A DNA stretch of 64,000 bases from Centroberyx gerrardi (Eukaryota; Chordata; Actinopteri; Beryciformes; Berycidae), in contig NC_136012.1 in NCBI RefSeq assembly GCF_048128805.1, positions 12,961,725 to 13,025,724 of the forward strand. Direction: 5' to 3'. The notes below the pieces were generated by a model. It saw only the letters and a program-made list of their open reading frames with translations. It was not told the origin of the DNA and did no database searches. This document shows, in pieces, positions 1 to 62,940 of this stretch (position 1 is its first letter; the number at the start of each line of letters is the position of its first letter). The translations under genes and the position numbers were made by a program.

Positions 1-2171
<2,171 letters not shown>

Positions 2172-3815
2172 AAGCAGCTTAGAGGAGAGCATCTTTCTCA
2201 CTGCAACTACATGTTACTTTAGGAAAAGAGTCATTAGTCGAGTCTGAAGATTTTATTGTTGAACGTTATTTAAAAGATTATCTGAATACACTGTATAGCC
2301 GACAAGGTTTTAAATGTGAAGGAGAGGTTGTTCAGGGAGCACCCATGGTAGTATTTAGACTTCTTGGTCAATGGGACCTGCTGTTTGTATTATAATGTAA
2401 GGCTTGTTTGAGGATGGCCAACATCTTAATGTTGCCTTTTAACACATACGCGTGGCAACAAGCGCTGCTTGAAATTGGACTCTTGTTATTAAGCACCTCT
2501 AGCATTAAGGGGGAAATCCACCTTAAACAGAATTCACTTGTTATTGCAATGATTTTTGACTGCAAGGTCCATATTTGTGAACATGACCAACTCTCTGAAA
2601 ACTAGAAGCCACAAAATTGACAGGATATTGGAAGCTGACTTTATGGACTTTCAAACTAGAAACTGAAATCATCTGAAATGTGTCCTGGGTACTTCACATC
2701 ACCAGTGTTTTGTGATAGCATCACAGACCGGATCTTAACTTCCTTTAAAGAGATTTCATATTACGATTGTTTGGTTATGTCTTCCACGATCATATGAATG
2801 CCTTATGACAATGTGAATTCGAATTTAGGGTGCATTTGCACTTGAAGATAAAGCAGACAATTCTACTCTGAGCACAAGCTGTAGTCTTAATATTTCCTCC
2901 CTGTCAAGCCAGAGAAAACATTAACTTGAAGAGAGACACAAAATTGACTCTTATTTGGGGGAGCGGGGGGGGATCGAGAAGAGAGAGAGCATTTACGGGG
3001 GAAAGACTTCTTCCGAGACTGCAGTTCATTTTCCCCAATGTTGAGTATTTCAAGTATGGAACTCAATGTGTGCTTTATACTTCATTTTCTTTAGGTCAAA
3101 AGCATAGGACATGCATGCCATCCTGCTCTACGTTAGTGCCATTTGCCCATTATACACTAAGCAAGTCATCTTTTTATTTTTTACATCTGTCTCAAATGTC
3201 TGGACACTTCCTATTATATTGAGATATACAATACATATGCCTTAGTATAATGCACTAGTACAAGTTGTTTTTTTCTATTTGTGGAGCTAATTTCATCTTT
3301 ATGGTGTAGTGTAGTGGAGGCAAAGTAACTTTATTTTGTATCATAATGTATGTGAAATGTTTACATTCATCAAGCCCCCAGATACTTAATTTATTAAATT
3401 ATTTTACATGTTTTATCTCACATGCTTTGTGCCATTTTCTTCTATGCATTTCACTATTAAATCAATGATCTTCCTAAATGTATATTGATGCTTTCAAAGG
3501 TTCATAATAATTTCTGCAAATCTGAACTCGCTAGTTCTTAGAAAAGTTCATCCGATGAGGCTATGATGACATGTAATTACTGCAAACAGCTTATTTCTAT
3601 TTGCATTTCCTACTGTTGAATGTGTAAAACCATACAGTAATTGACAAAAACAAAACAAAAAAACATGATAAATAGTCTTGTCCTGTGATGTAAAATAGAA
3701 CAGTTATGGGGTGACTGAACAGTTGCACCTTATGTGAATGGTGTGGAAGGACTGCTGATGATACTGCATTATGGGAATACTTCCATGAACACGACAAACC
3801 ACTGTCAAGTCATAA
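2172..3815 (+). other. kif3a 3' UTR and downstream intergenic DNA
   Basis: No supportable coding sequence. The proximal part is presumably the kif3a 3' UTR. I did not find one clear AATAAA that would fix its end. Copy B lacks about 54 bp that copy A carries near 2362-2415. The rest is AT-rich and unremarkable. Confidence 0.5.
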
Positions 3816-3929
3816 TTTATTGATTTTATAAATATAAATACTACAAAAATAAGTTATATAAGTACATAAATAGTATAGTACATTACAATAAATAAGGATA
3901 ACTTAAGTGTTGATACATGTAGTCGTGGG
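3816..3929 (-). promoter_or_regulatory. il4/13 copy A 3' UTR with AU-rich elements and poly(A) signal
   Basis: Read on the - strand, the 114 nt after the stop codon hold four ATTTA pentamers (one in TTATTTATTG, one in CTATTTATG, two overlapping in GTATTTATATTTATA). An AATAAA follows (plus-strand TTTATT at 3816-3821). AUUUA clusters are the usual instability signal of cytokine mRNAs, so this supports both the strand and the cytokine call. Confidence 0.7.
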
Positions 3930-4892
3930 TCACTCAGTGTACTCAAGTATATCGTTAGCACATTGAGCAATGGCTTCCAGCAACTCCAGTACAGGTTCCG
4001 TGTTGTTATCATTTCCGCAGTTGGTATTGTTTTTCTGAAACAAAATAATTTTAGCATTTGAAATTTAAGTGCACAAGGATCTTGCTGAACAGGTAGAACT
4101 AAAATGTTTTGGAACAAGATGGACACCCAGGAGCATAAGCTTGACATTCCTGGTTGGCACAAAGGTGGTTTAAAGTCATAGCCAGGTATTTGAAATTTTG
4201 TGTATGAAGTCAGATTTCATAATGGACTGACCAGCCTGTCGAATAATAGTCATTCCTCCTTACCGCTTTGTTGTACTGTGCCAAGACTCTGGTGATTTTC
4301 CAATCAGTGATTCCTTCAGTCACATTGCTAATGCGTCTCAAACTCATCTCAGCCAAACAGAAGGGTTTATCCTGAGATGAGAAAGACACAATAGTGGTGT
4401 TAGGACAGAATTAGACAAAAGGCAGCAGCAAAGCTCTATATTGCAAATGTACACCTGCAACATATTGCTGTTATGAAGACTCTGCAAGCCCCAAGAAAAG
4501 TCTGGAAATTGCAGATACAATGTCTGAAAAAAGAACATTACATGGCTAGGATAAGAACAATACGTTTTTAAATGTTTCTAACATACCTTCGTGATGCCAT
4601 TCTCCATTATCGATGGCACATTTATGCCCTCCAGTTCCTATGACAAGATCAGAATGTCATTATATAAAGCATTTGGCACATTAGTAATGTAAGAGCATTT
4701 ACATTTATCCAAAAAAGAAACTCAAATATAGTTTTATACTTGTCTTACCGTATATTTCTTCCTTCCTTCTTCTCTGATTTCTTTCAGCCACACTGTCACT
4801 AACTTATCATCTGGGGTTGGTGTAATTGATTTTGCGTAGAGCATCTCACACAGCATCATAAATGCAAGACAGAAGATACAAACAGTCTTCAT
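3930..4892 (-). CDS. il4/13: Interleukin-4/13-like cytokine, copy A (complete, four exons)
   Basis: Exons in transcript order: 4749-4892, 4587-4637, 4264-4371, 3930-4034. Lengths are 144, 51, 108 and 105 nt, all phase 0, giving 135 residues. The protein starts with a 20-residue signal peptide (MKTVCIFCLAFMMLCEMLYA). The mature part is short and helix-forming, with cysteines C70, C107 and C126 and N-glycosylation sequons at N81, N103 and N111. Four phase-0 exons, a short secreted product, an AU-rich 3' UTR and a position next to kif3a all fit the four-helix IL-4/IL-13 family, whose genes neighbour KIF3A in tetrapods. Teleost IL-4/13 drives type-2 responses through IL-4R-alpha/STAT6 receptors. 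Sequence identity to mammalian IL-4 is too low to judge by eye, so the call rests on structure and synteny. I cannot tell whether it is the A or B teleost paralogue. The upstream in-frame ATG at 4916 is rejected as the start because the signal peptide begins at 4892. Confidence 0.82.
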
Positions 4893-5000
4893 GGCTTTGA
4901 AGTACAATGTGGGCAAACACTGTCAGGTTGAGGTGGAAAGTTGAATAACTTCCAAACTCAAACACTTGCTACTTATACTGTCACCAAATGCTGACACTCA
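4893..5000 (-). promoter_or_regulatory. il4/13 copy A core promoter candidate
   Basis: On the - strand a TATA-like AGTATAAGTAG lies at about 4968-4980, roughly 80 nt upstream of the ATG. This implies a short 5' UTR. Copy B keeps the same motif (about 17828-17840). Immune-factor sites were not assigned. Confidence 0.5.
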
Positions 5001-6740
5001 GACCGCTGACATCCTGAAGACATATTGCATACACGTCAGAGTCAATCTATGTTCCGAAAGCCTAATAAGGACCAGGAAGGACCTGCAATCAGCAGGTATC
5101 AAACGGAAAGTTGATGTCTTTATCTGTTTGACAATCAAAAATCACACTTAGTGTGTAACCTCCTTCTTTATCTATTACCAAGCAACTACCTCTTAATCAC
5201 TGTGATCTGAGTCAGTAAAACCTTCACCAAGAAGTGCTGGTCTTATTCTTACAGAGTGTCAAACCTCACTGAACACACTTCATCTGATATGTGTAAGGAC
5301 GAGGAAGGACGGACGGGAGATGGAGGAGTATGGCAATGACATTACTTACCATCTAATGAAAGACTAATCTTATGTGATTTCATGATGAAGGCATAAAGAA
5401 AAACTGTCTGATACTGTACATATTCCCAATTTTCTAAAGTGTATTTTTATAATTCATGTTTTGCAAGAAAACTAAATCATTTTCTTAAATAGGCTGGGCC
5501 ATCATTTACCATTGTATTAAAATATTGTGCAACTGAAATGCTTTATTCACACATATTGGTATATACACCAAGGAAAGTGACAAGAGTAGGCAGAGGCTAA
5601 AGGGGATTTTTTTTTTTTTTTTTTTGAGTCAAGCTATATCCCACACACAGCAGATAAGGTGGAGGAAAATGTGACTGACAGACATATTCCTGCCACTGTC
5701 ACAGGTATACCACTTGGAAATATGAATTGCATTTATTACTAAGTCAGCTTCAGTTTTACTCCAAATGACTATGATTCAAGTTTACTGTTCCATGACCAGT
5801 TGATAATTTTGTTTTTAAGACAAGTTCCCTCTTAAAAAAAAACACAAGAATCCAGTTATTGTGTGTTTTTTTTTTATTCAAATAAAATAAATCCAAAAAT
5901 ACTGAAGACATTTTGAGAAAGGAGTTTCCTAAAATAGCAACATAGGAAGGTGGACTGTCTTGGATATATGATTACACACTTGGAGGAGTCATAGGCAGAT
6001 AGGTTTATTAACTAGGAAGTAGTTACTGAACAGAGAAAAACAACAGGAAAGTATTCAGTAATACAAGCCAGTCTTGCACAATACTTTGAGTTTTCCAAAA
6101 GCGAGACATATTTTTAGGATTTTTAGGACAATGCCATCATTTTGACATGTGGGTCCTGTCCTGCTCACCTTGATAGGAGTTAATAGATTTGCATTTTTCT
6201 GTTATTAATGTATCTGGTATGCACATTGGACACAGACTTTATTATACAATAACCCCAAAACTCTTACAGATCTCCACATTAGGTGAAAATGCAACACTTT
6301 AACTCAATGCCATTTCGGTATACTTGTGTAGTGTAGCTGCACCACAAGACAACAGTTGAGGAAGAGCCCCCTCCTCAGGTAATGTTTGTAACTTCTATAT
6401 GTGCAGCAGCAGTTCATTTCAAGAGGCATAGCTAGTGGCCAGAAAGAGAAATGCTACAAATAGCCTTTATTTTGTTTTGTCAGTCTCTAAAAATCAAATA
6501 AACACGTGAGTTAAACTGCCCCGTCTTAACTGAGTTCACATAGTAGTGCCACATCTCCACAGAGAGCACCTGTGACATGTTATTAATATTTTGAGACCAT
6601 AGTAGAGAATGGGGCAAACGATTTCCTCTTCCAAACCATACAGCACAGTCAATAATTTCACCGGCTTTGTGTTCTGCTTTGCAGCGATAATTATCCCACG
6701 GAACCTGCAGATGCCTAACTGTTGCCCTGACATAACGGCC
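5001..6740. other. Non-coding remainder of duplication unit A
   Basis: Upstream flank of il4/13 copy A. It has poly-T tracts (about 5611-5627 and 5862-5874) and no exon-like structure I can name. A - strand open frame at 6480-6794 crosses the duplication junction and is discussed among the rejected items. Confidence 0.6.
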
Positions 6741-8324
6741 AGATTCATTTGCTAACTGCGCCTGTTTTACAGCTGTATTTGGACATGTTCGCACAGAAGA
6801 TGTGCATAAAATGAAAAAGCTCTCTTTGCCTCTGAATGACTGTCCATTGCTTTACTTAGTTTGTGTCATGCTAAACAGTTTTCACTGGCATAAACGTTTG
6901 CTTTTTTATGTATAATAACTGTGAGGCATGAGCACTTAAAAAAAACAAAGGGCAAGTTGCTAAATAATGAATCAATGAAATTATTTTTACACCAAATAAA
7001 ACTATAATACAGCTACTTGATGAACATGCTTTTAGTTGGTTTGCATTTGTAAGCTTTGTGGATAATATTTGTCTTTGTTGTTCTTTTTTCCTGTCTAGGA
7101 GATGATAGAGAATTACGTGCACTGGAATGAAGATATTGGAGAATGGCAACTGGTGAGCTCTCCTGGCATAGCACGTCCACGCACTGTGAATTCAAATCAT
7201 ATTAGCTTATGATCTCAGACGTGCAAACTCTGAGCTAAGGACTGCTACTCAGTAACTTGTTTCTTTCAGAAATGTGTGGCATACACTGGCAACAATATGA
7301 GAAAACAGACCCCCGCACCGGACAAGAAAGAAAAACCACATTGTGTGGTTTCTTTTTTGTTCCCGTCTGAAGTTTGTTTTCGTTTTATGAACTAACATCC
7401 CTGACATTCTTCTCTTGTTCTTTCCTTCTTTTATTCCTCCTCTCTCTCTTTTTTTTTCATTTGTCTCTCCCTGCCTCCTGTAGCCGTTTGAGGTGGACCT
7501 GTCCCATGTGTACCTGGCCTACACAGAGGAGAGCATGCGGCAGTCACTGATGAAACTAGAGAGGCCTAGGACTTCTAAAAGCAGCAAGAGTGGCCGGCCC
7601 AAGACTGGTCGAAGGTAATCTACAGTCTACACAGGCCACAGATGGCCTGGAGCTGCACAACCTATTAAACATGTCTGATATACCAGCCATTAGTCAGCCG
7701 TGGTGCAAAATAATGTAGCAATGTCTCAGTTGCTCTTCCTGAGCAGTCGTTAATAATGCAAGGCATCAGAATATAATCACTGATATGATATGCAGTGTGA
7801 TATTTGCCATTATCATGGTATACTGTTATTCTGAGAAATATGAAGGCTGAAAGCTTCTTGAAGTTGTTGAATGATATGTCAACGATATAAACTGTGTTGG
7901 ATCATTGGTTGATATGAACTGGGAAAAGCATGGTACTGAATCTACCGAAAAAAGGGTTAAGAATAGCTCATATTAATGTCAGGAGTTTAAGAAATACAGT
8001 TGATGAAATGTCTAGCTTAACTAGAAAGGTGCATTTTCTGGAGAAAATGCGTGTGATTGCTGAGAGTGCAAACTGTGGCTTATCAGTAAAAAACAGTGGT
8101 GCAGTTTAGTGTGGGTACAGCTCACCCTTTCTGTTGGCTGTCTGTGACCGGTCTATCACTCTCCTCTTTCCCTCTTTCTTATCCTATGGCTGTATCTATG
8201 TCACATATTTCTGTCTGTCTCCACTTGTTGTCTCTGTCTCATCTGCTTCACTCTCTCCCTGTTCTTCAGTTGCTGTCTCACTCTCCTGGTAAAACAGGGA
8301 TAGGTACTGATACTGGTCCTATAT

Positions 8325-8595
8325 ATGTACCAGTGGCTGTGTGTGTGTGTGTGTGTGTGTGTTGTGTGTGTGTGTGTTGTGTGTTTGTGTGTGTGTGTGT
8401 ATGCGGGTGGATGTGTACTGATGTGTAGTGCGTGTGGCAGATTATACACGCACTGGCACTGGCACATACTGGTACCAGTAACTGCCTGTGTGTGTGTGTG
8501 TGTGTGTGTGCATGCGTGCGTGTGTGTGTGTGTGCGTGTGTGTGTGTGTGTGCGCGTGCAGGTGGATGTGTACCGGTGTGTAGTGTGTGTGGCAG
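8325..8595 (+). repeat. Compound GT microsatellite block inside the LINE
   Basis: Two GT/GC-rich dinucleotide tracts (about 8337-8412 and 8487-8590) are separated by a non-repetitive spacer. CACTGGCACTGGCAC-like short repeats occur at its edges. The block replaces the LINE endonuclease core. Confidence 0.85.
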
Positions 8596-8904
8596 ACAAT
8601 TCGACAATTTTGTTAGAGATATAGAGAATGTTGAGTGGAACCAAGTGTTGGCATTAAATGAGGTGGAAAAAGCCCCCGAGTTATTTACTGAACTATTTCT
8701 CTCTGTGGCTGATCAATATGTCCCATTAAGAAAATTAACAGTAAGATCTAATAAAGCATCATGGATTGATGAAGAACTTAGGGAGTGTATGCGTAAAAGA
8801 GACGAGCTGAAAAAAGCTGCAATAGATTCTAAAGGAACTGAAAAGTGGCAAATGTACTGTGTAATGAGAAATAAAGTTACAAAGTTAACCCTCCTATTAT
8901 CTTT

Positions 8905-8921
8905 GGGGTCAATTTGACCCC
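8905..8921. promoter_or_regulatory. Palindrome GGGGTCAATTTGACCCC (piggyBac left end, copy 1)
   Basis: Perfect 17-bp palindrome apart from its centre, about 16 bp inside the left end. Its core GGTCA-nnn-TGACC matches the estrogen response element half-site geometry. It may instead be a transposase-binding site. Confidence 0.8.
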
Positions 8922-9083
8922 ATTCAATGTTTAACATCTCTAAATAAATGATTGACATCATTTTTTTTGCTTCATATTTAATGACTTTTCCTAATTTAAT
9001 GGGGACAACTGGGTAAACATAAAATTAACATGATGATATGTTTTCAATGTCCTGTACACATTTTGTACGCATCGGTGTTCTTT

Positions 9084-9100
9084 GGGGTCAATTTGACCCC
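9084..9100. promoter_or_regulatory. Palindrome GGGGTCAATTTGACCCC (piggyBac left end, copy 2)
   Basis: Identical to copy 1 and about 180 bp further in. Confidence 0.8.
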
Positions 9101-9416
9101 AGGCTGTTTTAGCTGTATAAAACATATAAGAAATATCAACATTTTACAAACATTTGTTTTGGTTGTTTTGGATGATATTGAGGTCACTATAACATGCAAT
9201 TTTATAATCTTCAAAAAACTTCCCTCTGCTTTAGGGCCCTAACTTAACATAACCATACCTGTAGTAGTGCGAGAACCACTGATAGTTCACACGACATGGG
9301 GGAGGGGAAAACATAATTCCCACGAGAACTTTGATATTTCCCGCGACGTGGGGGCGGGGAAATATGGTTCCCGCGAGGACATTGATAGTTCACACAACAT
9401 AGGGGAGGAGCAAACA

Positions 9417-9424
9417 TATAAAAG
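9417..9424 (+). promoter_or_regulatory. TATA box of the piggyBac transposase gene
   Basis: TATAAAAG lies about 60 nt upstream of the first transposase-like codons, after GC-rich near-repeats containing CCCGCGA and TCACAC. It is the most plausible internal promoter of the element. Confidence 0.6.
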
Positions 9425-9477
9425 CTTGCACAGCAGCCTTCTAAACCATTTCTCTTGGTGCTCTGCGTGCTCTCTCT

Positions 9478-11166
9478 AAGCAAAGGTTTTCTGTCAATGA
9501 GGTTTTGTCACAGCTCTTTGACAGTGAAAGTGACATAGAGGAGAATGTGTCTGAGACAGAGGATAATGTTGAGGAGGACCCTGATTATGAGGCATCCTCC
9601 TCTGATGAGAATGAGACCCTTAGTGTTGACCCTCCTGTTGTCTCTCAACCACCAGCAGACACGTTACCTTCCAAAAATGGAAAGTTATTATGGTCCCTCT
9701 GCCCACTTGAACGACAGGGTACAGTTAGTGCTGCTAATGTCATCAAAATGGTTCCAGGCTCCACCAGATACGCTGTCAGCCATGTCCAAGACATAAAATC
9801 AGCATTTGAGCTCTTCGTAACACCATCAATCGAAAAGGATATACTTGAGATGACAAACTTAGAGGGGAGGCGCGTGTATGGGGACAGTTGGAAAGACTTG
9901 GATGTGACCCACTTGCAAGCCTACATTGTTGCTCATTTTGGCAGGAGTGTACAAGTCAAAAGGCGAAGCAACAGCAAGCCTTTGGAATGCCGACACTGGA
10001 AGGGCAATATTTCCAGCCACCATGTCTCTAAAGACATTCCATGTTTTCTCCCGTGTTATACGCTGTGATGACAGAGAAACAAGGCAGGGCCGACGAGAGC
10101 GTGACAAACTCGCAGCAATACGGGATGTATGGGACAAGCGGGTTCAGCGATTACCCTTTCTTTACAATCCAGGCCCCCACGTGACTGTGGATGAATGTCT
10201 GGTTGCATTTCGTGGGCGCTGTCCCTTCAGACAATACATACCAAGCAAACCGGCCAAATACGGTATCAAAATATGGGCAGCATGTGATGCACAGTCCAGC
10301 TATGCCTGGAATATGCAGGTGTACACTGGTGAATCCCCTGGCAAGCACCTGAAAAAAATCAGGGCATGAGGGTGGTACTAGACATGGCTGAAGGACTGAA
10401 TAGTCATAACATTACATGTGATAATTTTTTCACATCGTACGCCCTGGGTGAGGAACTGCTGAAAAGGAAGGTTACCATGTTGGGGACAGTGAGAAAAAAC
10501 AAGCCGGAGCTTCCCTCTGAGCTTCTTGCGATGAAGAACAGGAAGGTAACATCTTCAATGTTTGCCTTCACTGACAGAGCCACTGTCGTCTCCTATTGCC
10601 CCAAGAAAGGGAAAAATGTCCTGCTGATGAGCACCATGCACAAAGATGCTGTCCTGAGCACCAGAGAAGACGGAAAACCACAAATGGTCTTGGACTACAA
10701 CGAGACAAAGAGAGGGGTTGATAACCTGGACAAGGTCACAGCCACATACAGCTGCTGACGCATGACTGCCCGTTGGCCCCTTGTCATTTTCTTCAACATC
10801 ATTGATGTGAGCGCCTACAATGCCTTTGTAATATGGAGCGAAATAAACAAGGGCTGGAACAGCAGAAAACTGAGTCGAAGGAGGATTTTCCTGGAGCAGC
10901 TGGGTTACGCGCTGGTGAAACCTCATATCGAGAGAAGACGGTGCCTTCCAAGAGCATCAACAGCTGCTGCAACTGTTGTGAAGGACATCCAAACGGAGAC
11001 ACACACCCCAAGTCCTCCAGTGGTTCAAACTGCAGGCAGGAAACGTGGCAGGTGCCAGGTCTGTCCCAACAGAAATGACTCCAAGACCAGCAACACCTGT
11101 GTGAAATGCAAGAAATACATCTGCAAGGAGCACGCACACACTCTCTGCACATCATGTGCACAGTAG
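9478..11166 (+). pseudogene. piggyBac transposase (DDE_Tnp_1_7 type), inactivated
   Basis: Coding similarity begins near 9478 (KQRFSVNEVLSQLFDSESD), with an acidic N-terminus. It continues through the DDD core: D in HVTVDECLVAFRGR (about 10180-10215), D in ITCDNFFTSY (about 10410-10440), and D in RGVDNLDKVTATYSC (about 10710-10755). It ends in a cysteine-rich zinc-binding tail (CQVCPNRNDSKTSNTCVKCK, then CKEHAHTLCTSC) and stops at 11166. The expected start codon is missing. The frame changes near 9920 and again near 10366. A stop at 10756-10758 interrupts the conserved segment after TYSC. The transposase is therefore dead, although domain order is intact. It would have cut and pasted at TTAA sites. 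Confidence 0.93.
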
Positions 11167-11490
11167 TGCAGACAAAAGGCTGGACTGTACCTTCTGGTGG
11201 CCTGTAGGAAATATAATATGCTGTTCATATTCTGTCTGTTCATATTCTGTCAAACTCATTTTGGTGACTACGTAACTTTGTTTTTTACTATCTCACACAT
11301 ACATATTCGCATACATAGCACCTACAGTAGCATAGAACAATCCCTGACACAATGCTCAAATTTACTTTTTATAGGTGTTTTTTGTAAATAAAGAACTGTT
11401 ATGTGTTCCTTACTGATGTTCTGATGATGATGATGTTCTGTTTTACAAATAAAATCCTTCTAAATGTTTGAAATTGTGTTTGTTTTTCCT

Positions 11491-11507
11491 GGGGTCAAAT
11501 TGACCCC
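11491..11507. promoter_or_regulatory. Palindrome GGGGTCAAATTGACCCC (piggyBac right end, copy 3)
   Basis: Same palindrome with one centre base changed, about 390 bp from the right end. Confidence 0.8.
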
Positions 11508-11838
11508 GAACATAATACATGTTACTATCCTTGATAACAGAAATTGTTTTTCTTTCCAAATGTTATAAATAACAAAAATCTGTACTTAGAAATAACATAA
11601 AGCCATTAAAACACCAAAAAGATCTTTCTTTCCAATTTTAGGTCAATCAGTGAGATTTTATGGTGATTTGCATGTTTTTCCATAGTTGCGTAATAGGTAT
11701 TCTGGATGTATAAGGGGGGGTGGGGGGTTATGTTTTATTTAAAGGGCTATTTAGGTAGTCAAAGAAACATAAAGTACCTGACACATAAACTTGGGTAACA
11801 ATTTTAATTATAATCATTTTCTGGAGGTTTAAATTGCT

Positions 11839-11855
11839 GGGGTCAAATTGACCCC
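11839..11855. promoter_or_regulatory. Palindrome GGGGTCAAATTGACCCC (piggyBac right end, copy 4)
   Basis: Same as copy 3, about 40 bp from the right end. With copies 1 and 2 this gives two sites per end. Confidence 0.8.
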
Positions 11856-13123
11856 AAGGATAAAAGATTAGTAAATTTGAAGATAACAGGAGGGTTAAAC
11901 AGAAGGGAGAAAAAAGCATATTATCAAAACAAAATTCAGAGAGGAAGAATGACGGTAACAAACTTTGGAAAACCCTGAATGAAATTATGGGTAGAGCCAA
12001 GAATAATGCACCTTCTTTCATTGAGGTTAACAGAATTTTCTTAACAAAAGCAAAGGACATGGCAAACCATTTCAATGATCAGTTTGCAGACAAAGTTGAT
12101 AAGTTAAGAAAGGAAATGGGCTCCCCTAGTGGGGTGGTATGTTGCTTCAAATAATAACCAATTCTATCGTGAGAAACAAACAATGTGTTTTTGAGTTTCA
12201 ACCTATAGAAATTGGAAAGTGGAAAAACTACTTGCTGGGCTAAACAATGATAAACAGCTGGTATGGATAATCTGGATGGATGGTTACTTAAAGTTGTTTC
12301 GAACATAATTTCATTGCCAATATGTCATATTTTCAACTTGAGGTTTTGTTGTACCTGGGTGGTGCGCGCGCAGTACGCCGGCTGTCGGAGTGAATATCAA
12401 TAGGTAATTAAAAAATATGAAATAAAGTGACACTTGACTGCAAAACAAACTTTAGAACATATTTATTGACATATTTACAACAACATATTTATTCATACAT
12501 AATGCCTCTTTGACCCACTACTTACAGAGGGCACTGTATATTAGCCTCAGTGGCAAAGTTTGCAGCCTGGCTGAGAGCACTTAATTTTTCTAACATAGAG
12601 TTCGCTAACATTAACGTTAACGTGGAACATTATTTCACGATTTATTATTAATATTAATAATAATTAGTTGGCCATGAACATCAATAGAGACTACATTGCG
12701 AATGTAAAATCTATCTAACTTAACGTTAGCTAGTTAAATCTACCTTTCTCTCTCTTCTCTTTCTTTTTCTCTTCTTCTCTTCTTTCTTCTTCTCTCTCCC
12801 TCTCGCCCTCTCGCCCAAGGAGGTTCTATATTCGCCTCGGCCGGGTGTCGCCACATGTCGCCACTTCCTGTATCCGTCGTTTCAAATTAAAAGCCCTCTG
12901 CTAGGGGTGGGCGATACCGCAAAATTTGGTTTCGATCCGATACCAAGTAATACAGGGCCAGAATCGCCGATACCGATACCGATACTTTTTATTATTAAAA
13001 GCGGCTTATGTACTTTCATGTAGGGGAGAGCAGTGTGTCATGATTTATGAGGTGAATGCATCATCAATAGGCTAAATCTGAATACATTTTCATGACCACT
13101 AAATTATTTGCCAAAGGTTAGCA

Positions 13124-13195
13124 ATCATTGTAAGGTGAGTGGTAGAATTTCTACCTGTCACCTGTGAGACCCGGGTTTGATTCCCAACTGAAGCA
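13124..13195 (+). repeat. tRNA-Gly-derived sequence (SINE head or tRNA pseudogene)
   Basis: GTGAGTGGTAGAATTTCTAC resembles the D-arm and A box of vertebrate tRNA-Gly. GGGTTTGATTCCC at 13173-13185 is a B box with one change from GGGTTCGATTCCC. The acceptor stem does not pair and the anticodon-loop position reads GTC rather than GCC, so it is not a functional tRNA. It may be the promoter head of a SINE. Confidence 0.6.
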
Positions 13196-13228
13196 TGTAT
13201 GTAGCAAGCAAAGCAAAAAAAAAATTGG

Positions 13229-13281
13229 CTTCATTCATTTATGTAGCACTTTGTAAAAAAGTGCTACATAAATGAATGAAG
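13229..13281. repeat. Perfect 24-bp hairpin with 5-nt loop
   Basis: 13229-13252 is the exact reverse complement of 13258-13281. The arms start CTTCATTCATTT. Outside the arms an A-run with AAAGC and a T-run with GCTTT extend the fold to about 13208-13297. Confidence 0.9.
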
Positions 13282-13657
13282 TTTTTTTTGCTTTCCACTG
13301 TTAATTACTTAATCACATGCATGTTAAAACACAGGACAGTTTTTAAAGGCAAATAACAAAAATATTTTTTTTATTATTGTAAATTGAATGTGCAAACATG
13401 AAACATTTTTTTTTGAATAAACAAAGTGCACACAATTATTTGTGGAGAACAATGAATGTTTTAAAACTTTCACAACTTTTATAAATAAGCAAAGTGCAAA
13501 TAACTAAACAAAAGCACAAACTATCCTCAACCATTCTTCTTTCCTTCAGTTAGAGCAATGGTTCTCATGGTGCGCGCCGCTGCGCTGTTCGTTGTTTGAG
13601 TGCACACGACACGACAACAGCAGTGGAGAAGCAAAGAGTGCATGCATGCATTAAGAT

Positions 13658-14578
13658 GTGTTCCCCCAGGTTTGGAAATCTTCCAAGGTTGTACCTCTTC
13701 CGAAAAACAAACGGGAGAGTTTCTCAGCTACCAATAGCAGACCCATTAGTATTCTTCCAGTGTTGAGCAAGCTAATGGAAAAGGTTGTTTTTGAACAGAT
13801 ACTACACTATTTTTCACTTAATGAATTAAACTCTGATTTCCAGCATGCCTATAAGGCAGATCACTCTACGTGCACAGCACTGACAGAGATGATCGACAAA
13901 TGGTTATCTGATACTGACAAGAAAATGATGGTTGGAACTGTATTACTTGACTTTAGTGCAGCATTTGATATTATAGACTATAGGTTATTATTAACACAAG
14001 TAACTGCATATGGGTTTAGTCAGCAATCAGCAATCAATTGGATGAATAGCTACTTATCCAATAGGATGCAGTCTGTGTTTTTTAATGGTAGTTTTTCCTC
14101 CCCTACATGCTTACAGTGCGGCGTGCCCCAGGGGAGTTGCCTTGGGCCGCTACTCTTTTCAATATTTACCAACGACATGCCCTATGTTTTGGATAAGTGC
14201 AGTGCTACTCTATTTGCAGATGATACAACTATATATTTCACATCAAATAACATAACTGAGTTAAGGAACACACTTCAATCTGAACTGCAACTATTACTTG
14301 ACTGGATATGTGAGAATAGACTTGTTTTGAACGTAGCAAAAAACAAAAGTATGATGTTCAGGGCCAAACATGCCACTAATAATGATAATCAGCTGTGCCT
14401 ATCACTCAAAGGCTCGGATATTGAACAGGTTCAAAAGGCAAATTTGCTTGGTATCACACTCAATGGGCAGCTATCATGGGAGAAACATATTGAAAATATT
14501 GTTAAGAAAATGGGTAGAGGAATTTCTTTTGGAATATCGGTTATAGTAAACAACCAATTTGTCTGTACTCACAAATAA
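13658..14578 (+). pseudogene. LINE reverse transcriptase fragment (about 306 codons open)
   Basis: An open frame covers the RT palm and fingers of an L2/Rex/CR1-like ORF2. It contains FPQVWKSSKVVPLPK, NSRPISILPVLSKLMEKVV, the first aspartate in GTVLLDFSAAFDIID, the GVPQGSCLGPLLF block, and the catalytic FADDTT (about 14213-14231). The normal C-terminal region after ISFGISVI is mostly deleted. A trace resumes as MWNKLPTMIIEAPSKATFKK near 14695-14755. The element is immobile, since the endonuclease is also broken. Confidence 0.9.
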
Positions 14579-16672
14579 ATTATGTGAGAGAACAACATAG
14601 TCACACTACCAGGCAGGCTACTAGGGGTTATCTAGTTAAACCAAAACCCAGAGAACAGATGCAGTGTGTAGTTCTGTAATGTATATCCATCACAATGTGG
14701 AACAAGTTACCAACTATGATCATTGAAGCACCCAGCAAGGCAACTTTTAAAAAACTACTATTAACAATAACCCTAATGTTAATTAACCGACCTGATCAAC
14801 CACGATGGAATGCAATTTGATGTGTTGTGATTTTTTGTTTTTTATTTCTTTTTATTTCTTGAATATGTTTTTATTGAGACTTGTTACATGTGTTATATGT
14901 CTTGTTATATATGTTATGTTTTGTTGTGTGTGGACCCCAGGAAGAGTAGCTGCTACGTTAGTGGCAGCTAATGGGGATCCGAATAAACGAATAAACGAAT
15001 GAATGAATAATGCTTATCATCTAGGCTACTCCACACAGGAAAAGATCTGCAAAGCCAGAGGCCGTGATCGAATCCCTTCTGCAGTGAAAGCAGCTTAGAG
15101 GAGAGCATCTTTCTCACTGCAACTACATGTTACCTTAGGAAAAGAGTCATTAGTCGAGTCTGAAGATTTTATTGTTGAACGTTATTTAAAAGATTATCTG
15201 AATACACTGTATAGCCGACAAGGTTTTAAATGTGAAGGAGAGGTTGTTCAGGGAGCACCCATGGTAGTATTTAGGCCAACATCTTAATGTTGCCTTTTAA
15301 CACATATGCGTGGCAACAAGCGTTGCTTGAAATTGGACTCTTGTTAGTAAGCACCTCTAGCATTAAGGGGGAAATCCACCTTAAACAGAATTCACTTGTT
15401 ATTGCAATGATTTTTGACTGCAAGGTCCATATTTGTGAACATGACCAACTCTCTGAAAACTAGAAGCCACAAAATTGACAGGATATTGGAAGCTGACTTT
15501 ATGGACTTTCAAACTAGAAACTGAAATCATCTGAAATGTGTCCTGGGTACTTCACATCACCAGTGTTTTGTGATAGCATCACAGACCGGATCTTAACTTC
15601 CTTTAAAGAGATTTCATATTACGATTATTTGGTTATGTCTTCCACGATCATATGAATGCCTTATGACAATGTGAATTCGAATTTAGGGTGCATTTGCACT
15701 TGAAGATAAAGCAGACAATTCTACTCTGAGCACAAGCTGTAGTCTTAATATTTCCTCCCTGTCAAGCCAGAGAAAACATTAACTTGAAGAGAGACACAAA
15801 ATTGACTCTTATTTGGGGGAGCGGGGGGGATCGAGAAGAGAGAGAGCATTTACGGGGGAAAGACTTCTTCCGAGACTGCAGTTCATTTTCCCCAATGTTG
15901 AGTATTTCAAGTATGGAACTCAATGTGTGCTTTATACTTCATTTTCTTTAGGTCAAAAGCATAGGACATGCATGCCATCCTGCTCTACGTTAGTGCCATT
16001 TGCCCATTATACACTAAGCAAGTCATCTTTTTATTTTTTACATCTGTCTCAAATGTCTGGACACTTCCTATTATATTGAGATATACAATACATATGCCTT
16101 AGTATAACGCACTAGTACAAGTTGTTTTTTTCTATTTGTGGAGCTAATTTCATCTTTATGGTGTAGTGTAGTGGAGGCAAAGTAACTTTATTTTGTATCA
16201 TAATGTATGTGAAATGTTTACATTCATCAAGCCCCCAGATACTTAATTTATTAAATTATTTTACATGTTTTATCTCACATGCTTTGTGCCATTTTCTTCT
16301 ATGCATTTCACTATTAAATCAATGATCTTCCTAAATGTATATTGATGCTTTCAAAGGTTCATAATAATTTCTGCAAATCTGAACTTGCTAGTTCTTAGAA
16401 AAGTTCATCCGCTGAGGCTATGATGACATGTAATTACTGCAAACAGCTTATTTCTATTTGCATTTCCTACTGTTGAATGTGTAAAACCATACAGTAATTG
16501 ACAAAAACAAAACAAAAAAACATGATAAATAGTCTTGTCCTGTGATGTAAAATAGAACAGTTATGGGGTGACTGAACAGTTGCACCTTATGTGAATGGTG
16601 TGGAAGGACTGCTGATGATACTGCATTATGGGAATACTTCCATGAACACGACAAACCACTGTCAAGTCATAA

Positions 16673-16786
16673 TTTATTGATTTTATAAATATAAATACTA
16701 CAAAAATAAGTTATATAAGTACATAAATAGTATAGTACATTACAATAAATAAGGATAACTTAAGTGTTGATACATGTAGTCGTGGG
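16673..16786 (-). promoter_or_regulatory. il4/13 copy B 3' UTR with AU-rich elements
   Basis: Duplicate of the copy A 3' UTR, with the same ATTTA pentamers and AATAAA on the - strand (plus-strand TTTATT near 16674). Both copies should therefore share mRNA instability control. Confidence 0.65.
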
Positions 16787-17752
16787 TCACTCAGGGTACT
16801 CAAGTATATCGTTAGCACGTTGAGCAATGGCTTCCAGCAACTCCAGTACAGGTTCCGTGTTGTTATCATTGCTGCAGTTGGTATTGTTTTTCTGAAACAA
16901 AATAATTTTAGCATTTGAAATTTAAGTGCACAAGGATCTTGCTGAACAGGTAGAACTAAAATGTTTTGGAACAAGATGGACACCCAGGAGCATAAGCTTG
17001 ACATTCCTGGTTGGCACAAAGGTGGTTTAAAGTCATAGCCAGGTATTTGAAATTTTGTGTATGAAGTCAGATTTCATAATGGACTGACCAGCCTGTCGAA
17101 TAATAGTCATTCCTCCTTACCGCTTTGTTGTACTGTGCCAAGACTCTGGTGATTTTCCAATCAGTGATTCCTTCAGTCACATTGCTAATGTTTCTCAAAC
17201 TCATCTCAGCCAAACAGAAGGGTTTATCCTGAGATGAGAAAGACACAATAGTGGTGTTAGGACAGAATTAGACAAAAGGCAGCAGCAAAGCTCTATATTG
17301 CAAATGTACACCTGCTACATATTGCTGTTATGAAGACTCTGCAAGCCCCAAGAAAAGTCTGGAAATTGCAGATACAATGTCTGAAAAAAGAACATTACAT
17401 GGCTAGGATAAGAACAATACGTTTTTAAATGTTTCTAACATACCTTCATGGTGCCATTCTCCATTATCAATGGCACATTTATGCCCACCAGTTCCTATGA
17501 CAAGATCAGAATGTCATTATATAAAGCATTTGGCACGTTAGTAATGTAAGAGCATTTACATTTATCCAAAAAAGAAACTCAAATATAGTTTTATACTTGT
17601 CTTACCGCATATTTCTTCCTTCCTTCTTCTCTGATTTCTTTCAGCCACACTGTCACTGACTTTTCATCAGCTGGAGTTGATGTAATTGATTTTGCGTAGA
17701 GCATCTCACACAGCATCATAAATGCAAGACAGAAGATACAAACAGTCTTCAT
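16787..17752 (-). CDS. il4/13: Interleukin-4/13-like cytokine, copy B (complete, four exons, diverged)
   Basis: Exons in transcript order: 17606-17752, 17444-17494, 17121-17228, 16787-16891. Lengths are 147, 51, 108 and 105 nt, giving 136 residues with all splice sites intact. The 20-residue signal peptide is identical to copy A. Differences from A: P24S, D28A, an added E after D29, L31S and T48A (exon 1); E51V, S57L, I63T and T64M (exon 2); R78N (exon 3); G108S, C126R and T133P (exon 4), in copy A numbering. R78N creates a new NIS sequon next to the shared NVT sequon. C126R removes one of three mature cysteines and leaves a single pair. The gene has no stop or frameshift, so it looks functional. 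A 3.4-kb hAT begins about 500 bp upstream of its start codon and could alter its regulation. Confidence 0.82.
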
Positions 17753-17860
17753 GGCTTTGAAGTACAATGTGGGCAAACACTGTCAGGTTGAGGTGGAAAG
17801 TTGAATAACTTCCAAACTCAAACACTTGCTACTTATACTGTCACCAAATGCTGACACTCA
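17753..17860 (-). promoter_or_regulatory. il4/13 copy B core promoter candidate
   Basis: The TATA-like AGTATAAGTAG of copy A is retained at about 17828-17840 on the - strand. The proximal 400 bp is nearly identical to copy A, up to the hAT inserted at 18255. Confidence 0.5.
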
Positions 17861-18514
17861 GATCGCTGACATCCTGAAGACATATTGCATACACGTCAGA
17901 GTCAATCTATGTTCCGAAAGCCTAATAAGGACCAGGAAGGACCTGCAATCAGCAGGTATCAAACGGAAAGTTGATGTCTTTATCTGTTTGACAACCAAAA
18001 ATTACACTTAGTGTGTAACCTCCTTCTTTATCTATTACCAAGCAACTACCTCTTAATCACTGTGATCTGAGTCAGTAAAACCTTCACCAAGAAGTGCTGG
18101 TCTTATTCTTACAGAGTGTCAAACCTCACTGAACACACTTCATCTGATATGTGTAAGGACGAGGAAGGACGGACGGGAGATGGAGGAGTATGGCAATGAC
18201 ATTACTTACCATCTAATGAAAGACTAATCTTATGTGATTTCATGATGAAGGCATTAGGGGTGTAACGATCCATCGATCAGATCGATTCAATGATCAACGA
18301 TCCAATATCATCGATGCAAAGTGAAAACATCGATACATAATCATCATCTTTAAGATACGCCTTTATTTTGAAATTCCCATGGCACGTCTGTGTCACAATT
18401 TCCGTCCAAGCGCACCTCCTTCCTCAACATTCAAACGATGCTAGCGGCTAGCGCCAGGTAGATAATGGCAAGCAGCCAAGAAAAAGAGACAATGAGGATA
18501 TTTACTCCCCTCTC

Positions 18515-19070
18515 AGGAATAAATCAGCGGAGTGGAAATATTTTGGATTTCGGAGAAAAGACGGGTCAACGGACAAAGCGCATACTATATGCAAAAATGC
18601 CATTACGAGATAAAATACTCAGGAAACACGACGAACCTGGCTGGGCACCTAAAGAATAAACACGGCATTGCCCCCGTGCTAGCGCTAGCGTTAACGTGTC
18701 AGATGCCTGCTCACCAGCCTTGACCAGCTTTTTTCCGCAAAAACTGAACTATAACTCTAAAACAGCGATGAGTATCACAGCTGTCATTTCATATTTCATT
18801 TGCAAAGACATGAGGCCTTACAGTGTTGTCTAGAACGACGGTTTTCGTGAGCTACTGCATACTCTGGAGCCGAAATATGCAATCCCATCGAGACAGCACT
18901 TAAGTGAAATTTGCATACCGAGTCTGTACAATCAAGTTAAAGGTGAGGTTAAACGTGGGTTAATGAACGCAGAACGAGTCGCTATCACTACAGATGGATG
19001 GACGTCATGTACAACAGAAGCCTATGTAACTGTGACCGTTCAGAACGCAGCGTTTTGTCTCCTGAACATG
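18515..19070 (+). pseudogene. hAT transposase remnant (BED finger plus DGWTS block)
   Basis: A BED zinc finger is read in two frames. The first part is AEWKYFGFRRKDGSTDKAHT, ending in TICK. A one-base shift near 18595 follows, then CHYEIKYSGNTTNLAGHLKN and KHG. The N-terminal conserved region of ZBED/hAT transposases, ITTDGWTSCTTEAYVTVTVQ, appears at about 18983-19042. The catalytic domain and the C-terminal dimerisation region are missing. Confidence 0.88.
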
Positions 19071-19568
19071 TCTTATCAGTCGGGTTTTTTTTTAAGAAAA
19101 ACCCCTCAAAGAAGAACACTGAAGGACATACTTGACTGTTGTAGAGATCCCATAGTAAGCTATGATACAAGCCAATGAGCTGTCATCAAACTACTGATGA
19201 TGATTACATGCAAAGGACTTTGTTAAAGTATTTTACTTGTACAATATGCACTAAGAACATGTGGAATTGTTTACATTTGCTTTGTTCTAACAACTGAAAT
19301 TTCTTATTTTGATTTGGTTAAGAAAAATGTATATCCCAAGGTGTAGTGGATAGCTATGATGCAGGAAGACTGTACTGCATTTGCACTTAAAAGTATAGGT
19401 TAAGTGGTGACCTTGGTTATTACTAAGTTCTAACTGTTAAAAATATATTGTTTGAGACTCTAAATATGAGTGATGGTTTACACAAAAATCCTGCTTTAAT
19501 GTATAAAAATGGGAACTTAAAGTTCTTTCAGTTTTCTTTTATAGGATGTGAAAATTTTAAAGCTCAAT

Positions 19569-21193
19569 GGGCCTCATTCACGAAACGTGCGTACGATCAG
19601 ATTTGATCTTAAAGTGTACTTACGAACGTTTCCACGAACATTTCGGCATTCATCATTTTTTTTCTTACCTGAATTTGTTCTTTGGTACGATCAAAATCTA
19701 CGTGTGTTTGGAAACATGCGTGGGGCATTAAGCATGAAGTGGTTTCTGCTTAAAATGCCTTATTCTTTAAGGGAAATCTATTAAAGCAGTCCCAGACCTC
19801 ATATCAACACCAAATGTGTTTCAGGCCATTTGTAAGCCTGGTGATAATAACCATATTAACAAAGCTAGGCCGATATGAACAAATTCATAGGCAATTCTAT
19901 TCAATTGGAAACATGAATGATTAAAGTGATTAATTAGTATCGTATATATATTATCATATTATATTATTATGTATTGATCAATAAAGTTCTATCTTATCTT
20001 ACCACAGGAGCAATAGACTGTGCACATCAAAGCACCGTCTCCAAACCGTCTCCACCGTCTCCTATTTAAATCGCAAACAATAACACACCATAAACATTCA
20101 ATTAATTTGTGACGCCAACCTAAACCTCCTACATGTGGTTTCCAGCTGTCCAGGAGGGATCCACGACTCGTTGGTGCTGCAGAACAGCAGGGTGTCGTGC
20201 GTCTTGAGCAGGTGCTGCTGGAGACGCACGGCGCATTTAGGACTGAATGGAAGTTAAATTAACCAGAGTCTCAAGACTAACTAGTTTGTCTCTAGGTGAT
20301 AGAGGTTATGCCTTGACCACATTGCTAATGACACACCTGATAAACCTTCAGACCCCTCAGCAGAGATCATATAATTATCATACCTGCACTCGCTCCGCCA
20401 CAGAGCGCAGCATACTGAGCTGGAAGGCTGTGATGAGTTTGGACACCGCAGGAAGAAAGCTCCTGTCAAGAGCTACAGTCAAAACCAGCAATATTATTAT
20501 AAAGCCTTAAGTCTGAGCTTACCATCAGATGGAGATGCTGCTTGAATTAAACCAGTGTCCAACTCCACTGATGACTGGACACCTGACAGCACAGTCTCCA
20601 TATTATTTCCCCAAACATTTTGGCAGCGCCCTGCCGTCCGCCTGGAGCTAATAAACTGCATCTATTTGGAGTTAGACTATCACCCTCGCTTTTTAGATTC
20701 TAACTGTAAGTCAAACGGTTTCTTTTTAATTTAATTCAAGGTGTGTGTTTCTGATGTTGCAGCATTGACAGCATCAGTAATTTCTTTCCATGTTTTCTTT
20801 CTCAGTTGCTGTCACTCCACCGCTTACACTTTTAAAAAGTATATATATTTTTTTCTCTCACTCCCGAATACAACACTTGTATTTCAGAGTTTGAATTTTT
20901 CTTCTTGGGTCTGTTTGCCATTCTCCACTACTCCAGTAATGCTTTCCATTTGCGCACGACCCTTAAGACAGCAGACCTTTTATGGAGTTGCCAGGGCGTC
21001 TACCTGCTAATCAGCATCAACAGGCACGCGCATCCAATTAAGGAACAAGTGGCATTCATCATCAGATACACCTGGAATACGCAAAAATCGAGACTCTGCG
21101 CATGCTTCATGAATCCCACGTTGGTTTTGCGTAGGCATGTTTCTTAAGAACAAAAGTAAGAACAATTTAAGAAAAGTTTCGTGAATGAGGCCC
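19569..21193. mobile_element. PIF-Harbinger/ISL2EU-like transposon nested in the hAT
   Basis: Perfect 18-bp terminal inverted repeats, GGGCCTCATTCACGAAAC, bound 1625 bp. The element is flanked by AT on both sides (19567-19568 and 21194-21195), consistent with the 2-bp AT duplication of ISL2EU-type elements. It contains a fragment of a Harbinger-superfamily transposase. A transposase fragment with intact ends suggests a decayed copy that was once autonomous or was mobilised in trans. Confidence 0.88.
20145..20510 (+). pseudogene. Harbinger-type (DDE_Tnp_4) transposase fragment
   Basis: CPGGIHDSLVLQNS (about 20149-20190) matches the conserved W/CPGSxHD block. LGDRGYALTTLLMTHLIN, then RSYNYHTCTRSATERSILSW and KAVMSLDTAGRKLL, match the GDxGYPL...YN..H..TR..VER.F.xLK..F block up to about 20465. 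The two blocks are in different frames, and the first catalytic region was not found. HARBI1-like proteins share these motifs. Confidence 0.82.
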
Positions 21194-21658
21194 ATTATCT
21201 CTAAACCACTGAGCACACAGATAGAACCTTGTAAATCCAAGGTGATGAAGCATAGATGTGCATGGTTTATGTTCATAATTGAAAGGTCATCAAGGGCTCT
21301 TTAAATTAACTGATAAAAAACATTTGCACTTCAACATGAGAAATGTGGCACTTTATAGTGAACAACAGGAGGTCTATTTTTATTAAAAAGAATAGATTGT
21401 TTTTCATTTAAATGTCTGGAAGAGCTCCGAAATAAAATTGTCAAATCATATTTTAGTTGCTTTTTGTGAGTTGATATAAATGTAACTGATTGTGTTAAAT
21501 GAGCATATGATATCGTCTCATATTGATCGCAGGCCCCTGAATTGAATCGAATCGAAATCGTATCGTGGCAGACTTTGTGATATCAGCAAATATTGTATCG
21601 TTGTCCAAAGAATCGATATAATATCGTATCCTGATGAAACTTGTGATTTACACCCCTA

Positions 21659-23039
21659 GAAGGCATAAAGAAAAACTGTCTGATACTGTACATATTCCCA
21701 ATTTTCTAAAGTGTATTTTTATAATTCACGTTTTGCAAGAAAACTAAATCATTTTCTTAAATAGGCTGGGCCATCATTTACCATTGTATTAAAATATTGT
21801 GCAACCGAAATGCTTTATTCACACATATTGGTATATACACCAAGGAAAGTGACAAGAGTAGGCAGAGGCTAAAGGAGATATATATATATATATTTTTTTT
21901 TTGAGTCAAGCTATATCCCACACACAGCAGATAAGGTGGAGAAAAATGTGACTGACAGACATATTCCTGCCACTGTCACAGGTATACCACTTGGAAATAT
22001 GAATTGCATTTATTACTAAGTCAGCTTCAGTTTTACTCCAAATGACTATGATTCAAGTTTACTGTTCCATGACCAGTTGGTAATTTTGTTTTTAAGACAA
22101 GTTCCCTCTTAAAAAAACCCCACAAGAATCCAGTTATTGTGTGTTTTTTTTTTATTCAAATAAAATAAATCCAAAAATACTGAAGACATTTTGAGAAAGG
22201 AGTTTCCTAAAATAGCAACATAGGAAGGTGGACTGTCTTGGATATATGATTACACACTTGGAGGAGTCATAGGCAGATAGGTTTATTAAGTAGTTACTGA
22301 ACAAGGCTGATGATTGCATCAGTGAATGGTGGTGAGAAAAACAACAGGAAAGTATTCAGTAATACAAGCCAAACTTAGACAATACTTTGAGTTTTCCAAA
22401 AGCGAGACATATTTTTAGGATTTTTAGGACAATGCCATCATTTTGACATGTGGGTCCTGTCCTGCTCACCTTGATAGGAGTTAATAAATTTGCATTTTTC
22501 TGTTATTAATGTATCTGGTATGCACATTGGACAGACTTTATTATACAATAACCCCAAAACTCTTACAGATCTCCACATTAGGTGAAAATGCAACACTTTA
22601 ACTCAATGCCATTTCGGTATACTTGTGTAGTGTAGCTGCACCACAAGACAACAGTTGAGGAAGAGCCCCCTCCTCAGGTAATGTTTGTAACTTCTATATG
22701 TGCAGCAACAGTTCATTTCAAGAGGCATAGCTAGTGGCCAGAAAGAGAAATGCTACAAATAGCCTTTATTTTGTTTTGTCAGTCTCTAAAAATCAAATAA
22801 ACACGTGAGTTAAACTGCCCCGTCTTAACTGAGTTCACATAGTAGTGCCACATCTCCACAGAGAGCACCTGTGACATGTTATTAATATTTTGAGACCATA
22901 GTAGAGAATGGGGCAAACGATTTCCTCTTCCAAACCATACAGCACAGTCAATAATTTCATCGGCTTTGTGTTCTGCTTTGCAACGATAATTATCCCACGG
23001 AACCTGCAGATGCCTAACTGTTGCCCTGACATAACGGCC
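21659..23039. other. Non-coding remainder of duplication unit B
   Basis: Collinear with about 5390-6740. It differs by a (TA)n run near 21879-21892 and an extra stretch near 22308-22335. No supported gene. Confidence 0.65.
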
Positions 23040-23480: not shown

Positions 23481-51967
<28,487 letters not shown>

Positions 51968-62424: not shown

Positions 62425-62572
62425 CTAGTCTAGTTTATTTATATAGCTCTTTATCACAGTCAAGTCTCAAAGGGCTTTACATACCATCATATACATGTCA
62501 TATAGCCTACCATACTACATATATACACACATCATATACGTCCTATACTACATCATATACATACTTCATATA
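62425..62572 (+). repeat. SINE-like fragment and CATATAC repeat array (left part)
   Basis: TTTATTTATATAGCTCTTTAT then AAAGGGCTTTACATAC resembles a common fish repeat tail. It is followed by irregular ATCATATAC units. A MITE splits the array, and similar units continue at 62941-63005. Confidence 0.5.
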
Positions 62573-62940
62573 CACTACCAGTCAAAAGTTTGGACACACA
62601 CATTTTCTTTATTTTTTACTATTTTTCACATTTTAGAATAATAGTAAAGGCATCAAAACTATGAAATAACACAAATGGAATTATGCAGTGACCAAAAAAG
62701 TGTTAAACAAATCAAAACTATCTTATATTTTAGATTCTTTAAAGTAGCTGCCCTTTGCCTTGATGTACAGGCAAAGGCTTTGGAAAGAAATGCATACATA
62801 GGCATCAACTTCACTATTTACATTTGTCTAAGAAACAAATTTCAAGCATTTAAGCAGAAGCCTTTAGATCAAAATGGCTTTAAGATAATGAAAAACATAG
62901 TACATTCAATCAGGTGTGTCCAAACTTTTGACTGGTAGTG
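62573..62940 (-). mobile_element. Tc1-like MITE upstream of fgf16 (copy 2)
   Basis: Termini CACTACCAGTCAAAAGTTTG and inverse CAAACTTTTGACTGGTAGTG, 368 bp. The left flank is TA and the right is TG (decayed TA). It is the reverse-oriented relative of the copy at 36450-36815 and is inserted inside a CATATAC repeat array. Confidence 0.9.

Follow-up and report, generated by a model that had tools for sequence, protein, structure and literature searches.

A young tandem pair of probable il4/13b genes in Centroberyx gerrardi with coding exons more divergent than the surrounding DNA

Why do the coding exons of two young tandem gene copies differ from each other several times more than the DNA amid and around them? 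This question is raised by a pair of four-exon genes that lie between KIF3A and ATRX in the fish Centroberyx gerrardi and that were analysed here in a window of 64,000 nucleotides of contig NC_136012.1. Both genes are encoded on the minus strand. Copy A (LOC144542471; 3930-4892) has its exons at 4749-4892, 4587-4637, 4264-4371 and 3930-4034 and codes for 135 amino acids; the exons of copy B (16787-17752) lie at 17606-17752, 17444-17494, 17121-17228 and 16787-16891 and code for 136. The coding sequences including the stop codon comprise 408 and 411 nt, respectively. In both copies the introns are of the GT-AG type, are all in phase 0 and measure 111, 215 and 229 bp, and the reading frame, the splice sites, the 3' flank and ≈0.5 kb of upstream DNA are retained. 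The copy A protein is identical to the LOC144542471 protein of C. gerrardi ('uncharacterized') over all 135 residues. A word-based search of the protein database, restricted to proteins of 0.55-1.75 times the length, yielded no record for copy B, its only match being copy A at 90%. Copy B is thus a predicted gene, and the presence of a database protein for A and none for B was counted against the selective explanation given below.

The arrangement of the interval was derived from self-BLAST: the last KIF3A exons together with the four-exon gene were doubled by one tandem duplication of 5.8 kb. From left to right the window contains the last exons of KIF3A, copy A, a partial set of KIF3A exons, an insertion with LINE and piggyBac domains, copy B, a hAT-like insertion and ATRX. 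Copy 1 of the duplicated unit (950..6740) comprises the 3' exons of KIF3A, il4/13b copy A and its upstream DNA, while copy 2 (6740..23039) is stretched by the two transposon insertions. The collinear blocks pair 950-2093 with 6740-7876, 2085-2358 with 15000-15274, 2416-5394 with 15274-18254 and 5387-6740 with 21659-23039, and the junction at 6740 is base-exact with a microhomology of at most 1 bp. A segment of 57 bp in the 3' flank of copy A (2359-2415) is missing at the matching site of copy B (15274/15275). The KIF3A exons of copy 1 (709..2171, plus strand) start at 709, 1309, 1480, 1701 and 2123 and end with a stop codon at 2169-2171; joined, they match the KIF3A structure 9w9i_A in the PDB (E 7.2e-83). 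Their counterparts in copy 2, also on the plus strand, start at 7099, 7270 and 7484 (7099..7637), with the copy of the last exon from 15039. Since the 5' exons are absent from this fragment and a deletion near 7334 removed a splice donor, we take it to be non-functional. On the downstream side, an exon with the ADD domain of ATRX is found at 26966..28987 on the plus strand (PDB 2jm1_A, E 2.7e-32).

Both transposon insertions are present in copy 2 only and were therefore acquired after the duplication, or represent a haplotype difference if the assembly is wrong. The larger one (7877..14999, plus strand; its right end was set from the BLAST blocks) contains a LINE-type reverse transcriptase (PF00078, E 1.7e-30) into which a piggyBac-type DDE transposase (PF13843, E 3e-21) is nested. 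The other (18255..21658) lies ≈0.5 kb upstream of the ATG of copy B, has the ends TAGGGGTGTAA and TTACACCCCTA, and is framed by the two copies (18247 and 21659) of an 8-bp target duplication, GAAGGCAT. We presume a hAT-like element from the end motif and from the length of the target duplication; a Pfam search with one frame of the element gave no match. This insertion could change the regulation of copy B.

The sequence-only reading had addressed the genes as an il4/13 tandem pair. In euteleosts, including sea bass, the IL-4/13B locus is described as being flanked by KIF3A and ATRX, and teleost IL-4/13 genes as consisting of four exons with phase-0 introns (PMC5440397). Precisely this neighbourhood and this structure, four coding exons separated by phase-0 introns, were found for both copies. 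The pair thus very probably represents teleost IL-4/13B. Synteny and gene structure are the basis of this name, which sharpens the earlier assignment, whereas homology to IL-4 or IL-13 at the level of sequence did not emerge: a Pfam search gave no IL4/IL13 match and sequence searches of the PDB gave no cytokine match. Such a failure is to be expected given that the three IL-4/13 isoforms of sea bass are reported to share only 16-38% identity with each other (PMC5440397). One PDB entry, 8frf_A (chain RBL7_C2_3), was retrieved with E 0.0012 for copy A and 9e-6 for a two-row profile, but was rejected; the match spans only residues ≈96-129, and no individual stretch of it is significant by itself. 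By eye, the N-terminus is hydrophobic. Eight ATTTA motifs occur within 630 bp after the stop codon of copy A, and a signal of the AATAAA type follows 108 bp after the stop. The 3' flanks of the two copies (3300-3929 and 16160-16786) resemble each other in having eight ATTTA each and the same polyadenylation-type signals at equal distance from the stop. An AlphaFold2 model from the two-row alignment shows a leader helix followed by four helices, at a mean pLDDT of only 48.2.

Alignment of the two copies confirmed the differences that had been noticed by eye, namely 15 substitutions plus an in-frame indel of 3 nt in the coding sequence as compared to 2 differences in 555 intron positions (1, 1 and 0 in the introns of 111, 215 and 229 bp), the introns being of equal length in both copies. 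The substitutions had been read as 14 replacements and one silent change. Our recount gives 13-14 replacement and 1-2 silent changes, because the path from GGA to AGC is ambiguous and may pass via a silent step; the amino acid is altered in 12 codons. With 323 replacement and 82 silent sites counted, dN and dS amount to 0.043 and 0.018 (NG86) or 0.049 and 0.011 (YN00). The changes occur in clusters. A stretch of 20 bp in exon 1 (4801..4820 in A and 17658-17680 in B, minus strand), near the N-terminus of the presumed mature protein, contains four substitutions as well as the indel, and three close pairs are present. Outside the coding sequence (15/408), differences were counted at 7/1512 sites on the 3' side, 3/502 on the 5' side, 1/191 in the block 2113-2358, 10/886 in the non-coding part of the KIF3A region, 1/306 in KIF3A exons (ranges drawn by eye) and 19/1337 in the distal 5' block. 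Introns included, this adds up to 43/5289 for all non-CDS aligned sites of the unit, of which 306 belong to KIF3A exons. Three stretches were excluded from the counts: 2094-2112, an insertion edge; 2359-2415, the 57 bp that B lacks; and, in the distal block, the overlap of the target duplication at 5387-5394. In the distal block a poly-T stretch of A (5597-5623) stands opposite a TA repeat and T run in B (21876-21902), which raises the raw divergence of that block; the T-to-A differences within this run (5609-5615) were retained in the raw counts.

The excess of coding changes is statistically robust. With dN, dS and intron divergence computed, the introns (2/555) are far below the coding sequence (15/408; Fisher p = 1.9e-4, odds ratio 10.6), and comparison with the remainder of the aligned unit (43/5289) gives p = 8.8e-6. 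For the 13-14 replacements in 323 sites we used four references: introns (2/555; p 4e-5 to 9e-5), the non-CDS sites of the inner block between the two transposon insertions (12/2569; p 1e-7 to 5e-7, odds ratio 9-10), all non-CDS sites (43/5289; p 3e-6 to 1.2e-5) and the outer sites, i.e. the rest of the unit (31/2720; p 1.4e-4 to 4e-4), with odds ratios ranging from 3.6 to 12.5. The initial estimate that exons change about ten times faster therefore holds against the introns and, for replacements, against the inner flanks; against all or outer sites the factor is 3-6. Six of the 15 coding substitutions fall on CpG sites, a point that we counted against selection, but the excess persists at non-CpG sites (9/388 versus 35/5170, p = 0.003; versus 1/549 in introns, p = 0.002). 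Because of the clustering, the independent events may number only nine. When changes up to 5 bp apart were merged, the coding sequence retained 9/411 compared to 39/5343 elsewhere (p = 0.006), and the p-values rose to between 0.002 and 0.034 depending on the reference (inner sites, 0.002; introns, 0.011; outer sites with 25/2772, 0.034). A mask with the shape of the coding sequence was slid along the aligned unit; of its 5754 shifts, 10 covered at least 15 substitutions, and each of these lay at -7 to +2 columns from the true exons. The coding excess follows the exon borders. The comparison of replacement and silent rates alone is not significant (p 0.32-0.75), and neither is the dN/dS ratio of 1.5-4.7 across four methods. 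Neutral simulations with 15 changes yielded at most one silent change with a probability of 0.05-0.09 and at most two with 0.15-0.26. The evidence for selection is thus the comparison with the neighbouring DNA and not dN/dS by itself, for which the changes are too few.

Relaxed constraint can raise the rate of change to the neutral rate at most, a point made in the sequence-only reading that we consider sound, and so the excess requires selection, an import limited to exons, or bad luck. We regard positive selection acting on the proteins once the gene had been duplicated, the first of the two causes that had been suggested, as the best explanation and as a probable one. A single tandem duplication of 5.8 kb in the KIF3A-ATRX interval would have yielded two il4/13b genes, both of which would have kept ≈0.5 kb of upstream DNA, the splice sites, the 3' flank and the reading frame. 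Selection would then have promoted amino-acid changes in one of the predicted secreted cytokines or in both, presumably at their surface, and replacements would have outpaced the changes in the non-coding DNA amid and around the exons several-fold. The likely functional effect, as judged from the predicted proteins, would be two ligands that differ in glycan cover and in contacts to receptors or antagonists. The pair provides its own neutral yardstick in the form of introns, flanks and the dead KIF3A fragment, and it is so young that the changes between A and B are few and each can be named.

Other histories have to be weighed against selection on a young pair. The duplication might be older, with gene conversion between the copies homogenising introns and flanks and selection removing those conversions that erased useful exon differences; we consider this conceivable but rather unlikely. 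Raw non-CDS divergence is lower in the inner block (12/2569) than in the outer sites (31/2720; p = 0.008; counting gap columns gives 2e-5, merging adjacent changes 0.017), and the transposon insertions would halt conversion tracts at the edges of that block. However, the contrast fades when changes are merged at 3, 5 or 10 bp (p 0.11, 0.15 and 0.10), the silent divergence of the exons is low as well, conversion would have to affect introns as short as 111 bp and yet spare the exons, and selection for exon difference would still be needed. An assembly error, by which two haplotypes of one heterozygous locus were placed end to end with the insertions on one of them, would turn A and B into alleles. 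The non-CDS divergence of 0.8% is within the range of fish heterozygosity, and the protein database search returned A only. The window is free of N, the single junction at 6740 is base-exact and the source contig is listed as 30 Mb, all of which speaks against an error of this kind; we regard it as unlikely. The replacement excess would persist even then, as a property of divergent alleles, and would have to be read as a sign of balancing selection.

The second cause that had been suggested, conversion confined to the exons from a diverged il4/13 allele, or likewise from a paralogue or a cDNA, is very unlikely in our judgement. The dense 20-bp cluster with its indel in exon 1 might stem from the import of a short tract, but differences are present in each of the four exons and nearly absent from the introns between them, so that several tracts would be needed, each bounded by introns of only 111-229 bp. 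A diverged donor should also have brought silent differences, of which there are only 1-2 among 15; neither these nor the introns accompanied the exons. No convincing third il4/13b copy was detected in the window by tblastn, and we attribute a weak pair at 48254-48459 (E 0.23) to chance. We give equally little credit to neutral drift under relaxed constraint combined with a local hot spot of mutation or with complex mutations that happened to strike exons. The CpG share (6/15) and the clustering of the changes would fit such a history, whereas a neutral rate that relaxed constraint cannot pass, the non-CpG excess (p = 0.003) and the respected exon borders do not.

Exons that differ more than introns have been encountered in other duplicated genes. 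The introns of venom phospholipase A2 genes are reportedly more conserved than the exons, and in the tandem long-wave opsin genes of primates the greater difference of exons is explained by gene conversion together with selection; for the present pair conversion is possible but not needed. Snake venom gene families share duplicated paralogues with KA/KS >1, but are described for toxins in larger families (PMC6062510), in contrast to a cytokine pair of two genes. Closer in kind are IL-4/13A1 and A2 of sea bass, also tandem teleost il4/13 duplicates with four exons and phase-0 introns, which are reported from the RAD50 (A) locus with 37.9% amino acid identity (PMC5440397); the pair described here occupies the KIF3A/ATRX (B) locus and is young, with ≈90% amino acid and ≈99% non-CDS identity. 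Replacement-biased change in a type-2 cytokine is also described for mammalian IL4, for which 15 positively selected residues at receptor epitopes are reported and explained by escape from parasite antagonists (PMC3017759); we take this as a precedent in favour of selection. According to that study, 12 of the 15 map to the IL4R-alpha epitope (helices A, B and C) or close to it, and two to the AB/CD-loop epitope for IL13R-alpha1 or close to it. A review reports positive selection on mammalian IL4 and notes conflicting evidence as well (PMC9465101). The published IL4 case compares species and concerns mostly the IL4R-alpha epitope (PMC3017759), whereas here two paralogues sit within one genome and the modelled helix C is untouched. 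Tandem IL-4/13 genes and the fast evolution of IL-4 are thus already known, and the pair adds a new and unusually young example; among the matches listed in a search of the open-access literature (title and start of abstract), no report of an il4/13b pair between KIF3A and ATRX was found.

The replacements from A to B, in the numbering of A, are P25S, D29E, L31S, T48A, E51V, S57L, I63T, T64M, R78N, G108S, C126R and T134P; in addition, B has an extra codon near residue 28, the exact place of the indel being ambiguous. Residues 1-24 and 32-47 and the entire modelled helix C are free of replacements, which was counted in favour of selection. In the AlphaFold2 model the helices comprise residues 29-51, 66-82, 88-104 and 114-133. 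Six of the 12 replacements would lie outside of them, three of these in the 14-residue AB loop (52-65), and the replacements would thus lean to the N-terminus and the AB loop, as far as this weak model (mean pLDDT 48.2) can indicate.

Copy B features six N-glycosylation sequons and copy A three, the difference being due to I63T, R78N and G108S, and A has one cysteine more than B (C126, an arginine in B). One of the sequons in B is N-C-S, a form that is seldom used, and this was also counted against selection. With no outgroup il4/13b found by the word search of the protein database, the direction of the changes can be inferred only. At five coding changes in four codons (S57L, T64M, R78N and G108S) the CpG is present in A, so B is probably the derived copy there, and at one change, in the C126 codon, it is present in B, so A is probably derived; these hints are suggestive only. 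They suggest that the predicted sequons of R78N and G108S were gained in B and C126 in A. Simulations of 15 random substitutions starting from A produced at least three sequon gains in 1/4000 and 0/4000 runs, and those starting from B at least three losses in 4.7% and 3.9% of runs, p-values that serve only as a guide since the test was picked after the changes had been seen. The rarity of the gains from A was counted in favour of selection; with B as the ancestral state, losing three sequons would be no rare outcome (0.04-0.05), a point against it. It is a tentative and rather doubtful idea that the pair represents a newly split type-2 cytokine, with B shielded by glycans at six sequons and A less so at three, A carrying an extra and probably unpaired cysteine, and evasion of parasite proteins that bind the cytokine or mimic it being the driver. 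The differences could be tested individually for their effect on glycosylation, on the use of receptors and on resistance to parasite antagonists.

Note that the window also contains an inverted repeat pair at 36449-36818 and 62568-62939, the arms of which are 91% identical and which is probably a dispersed repeat.
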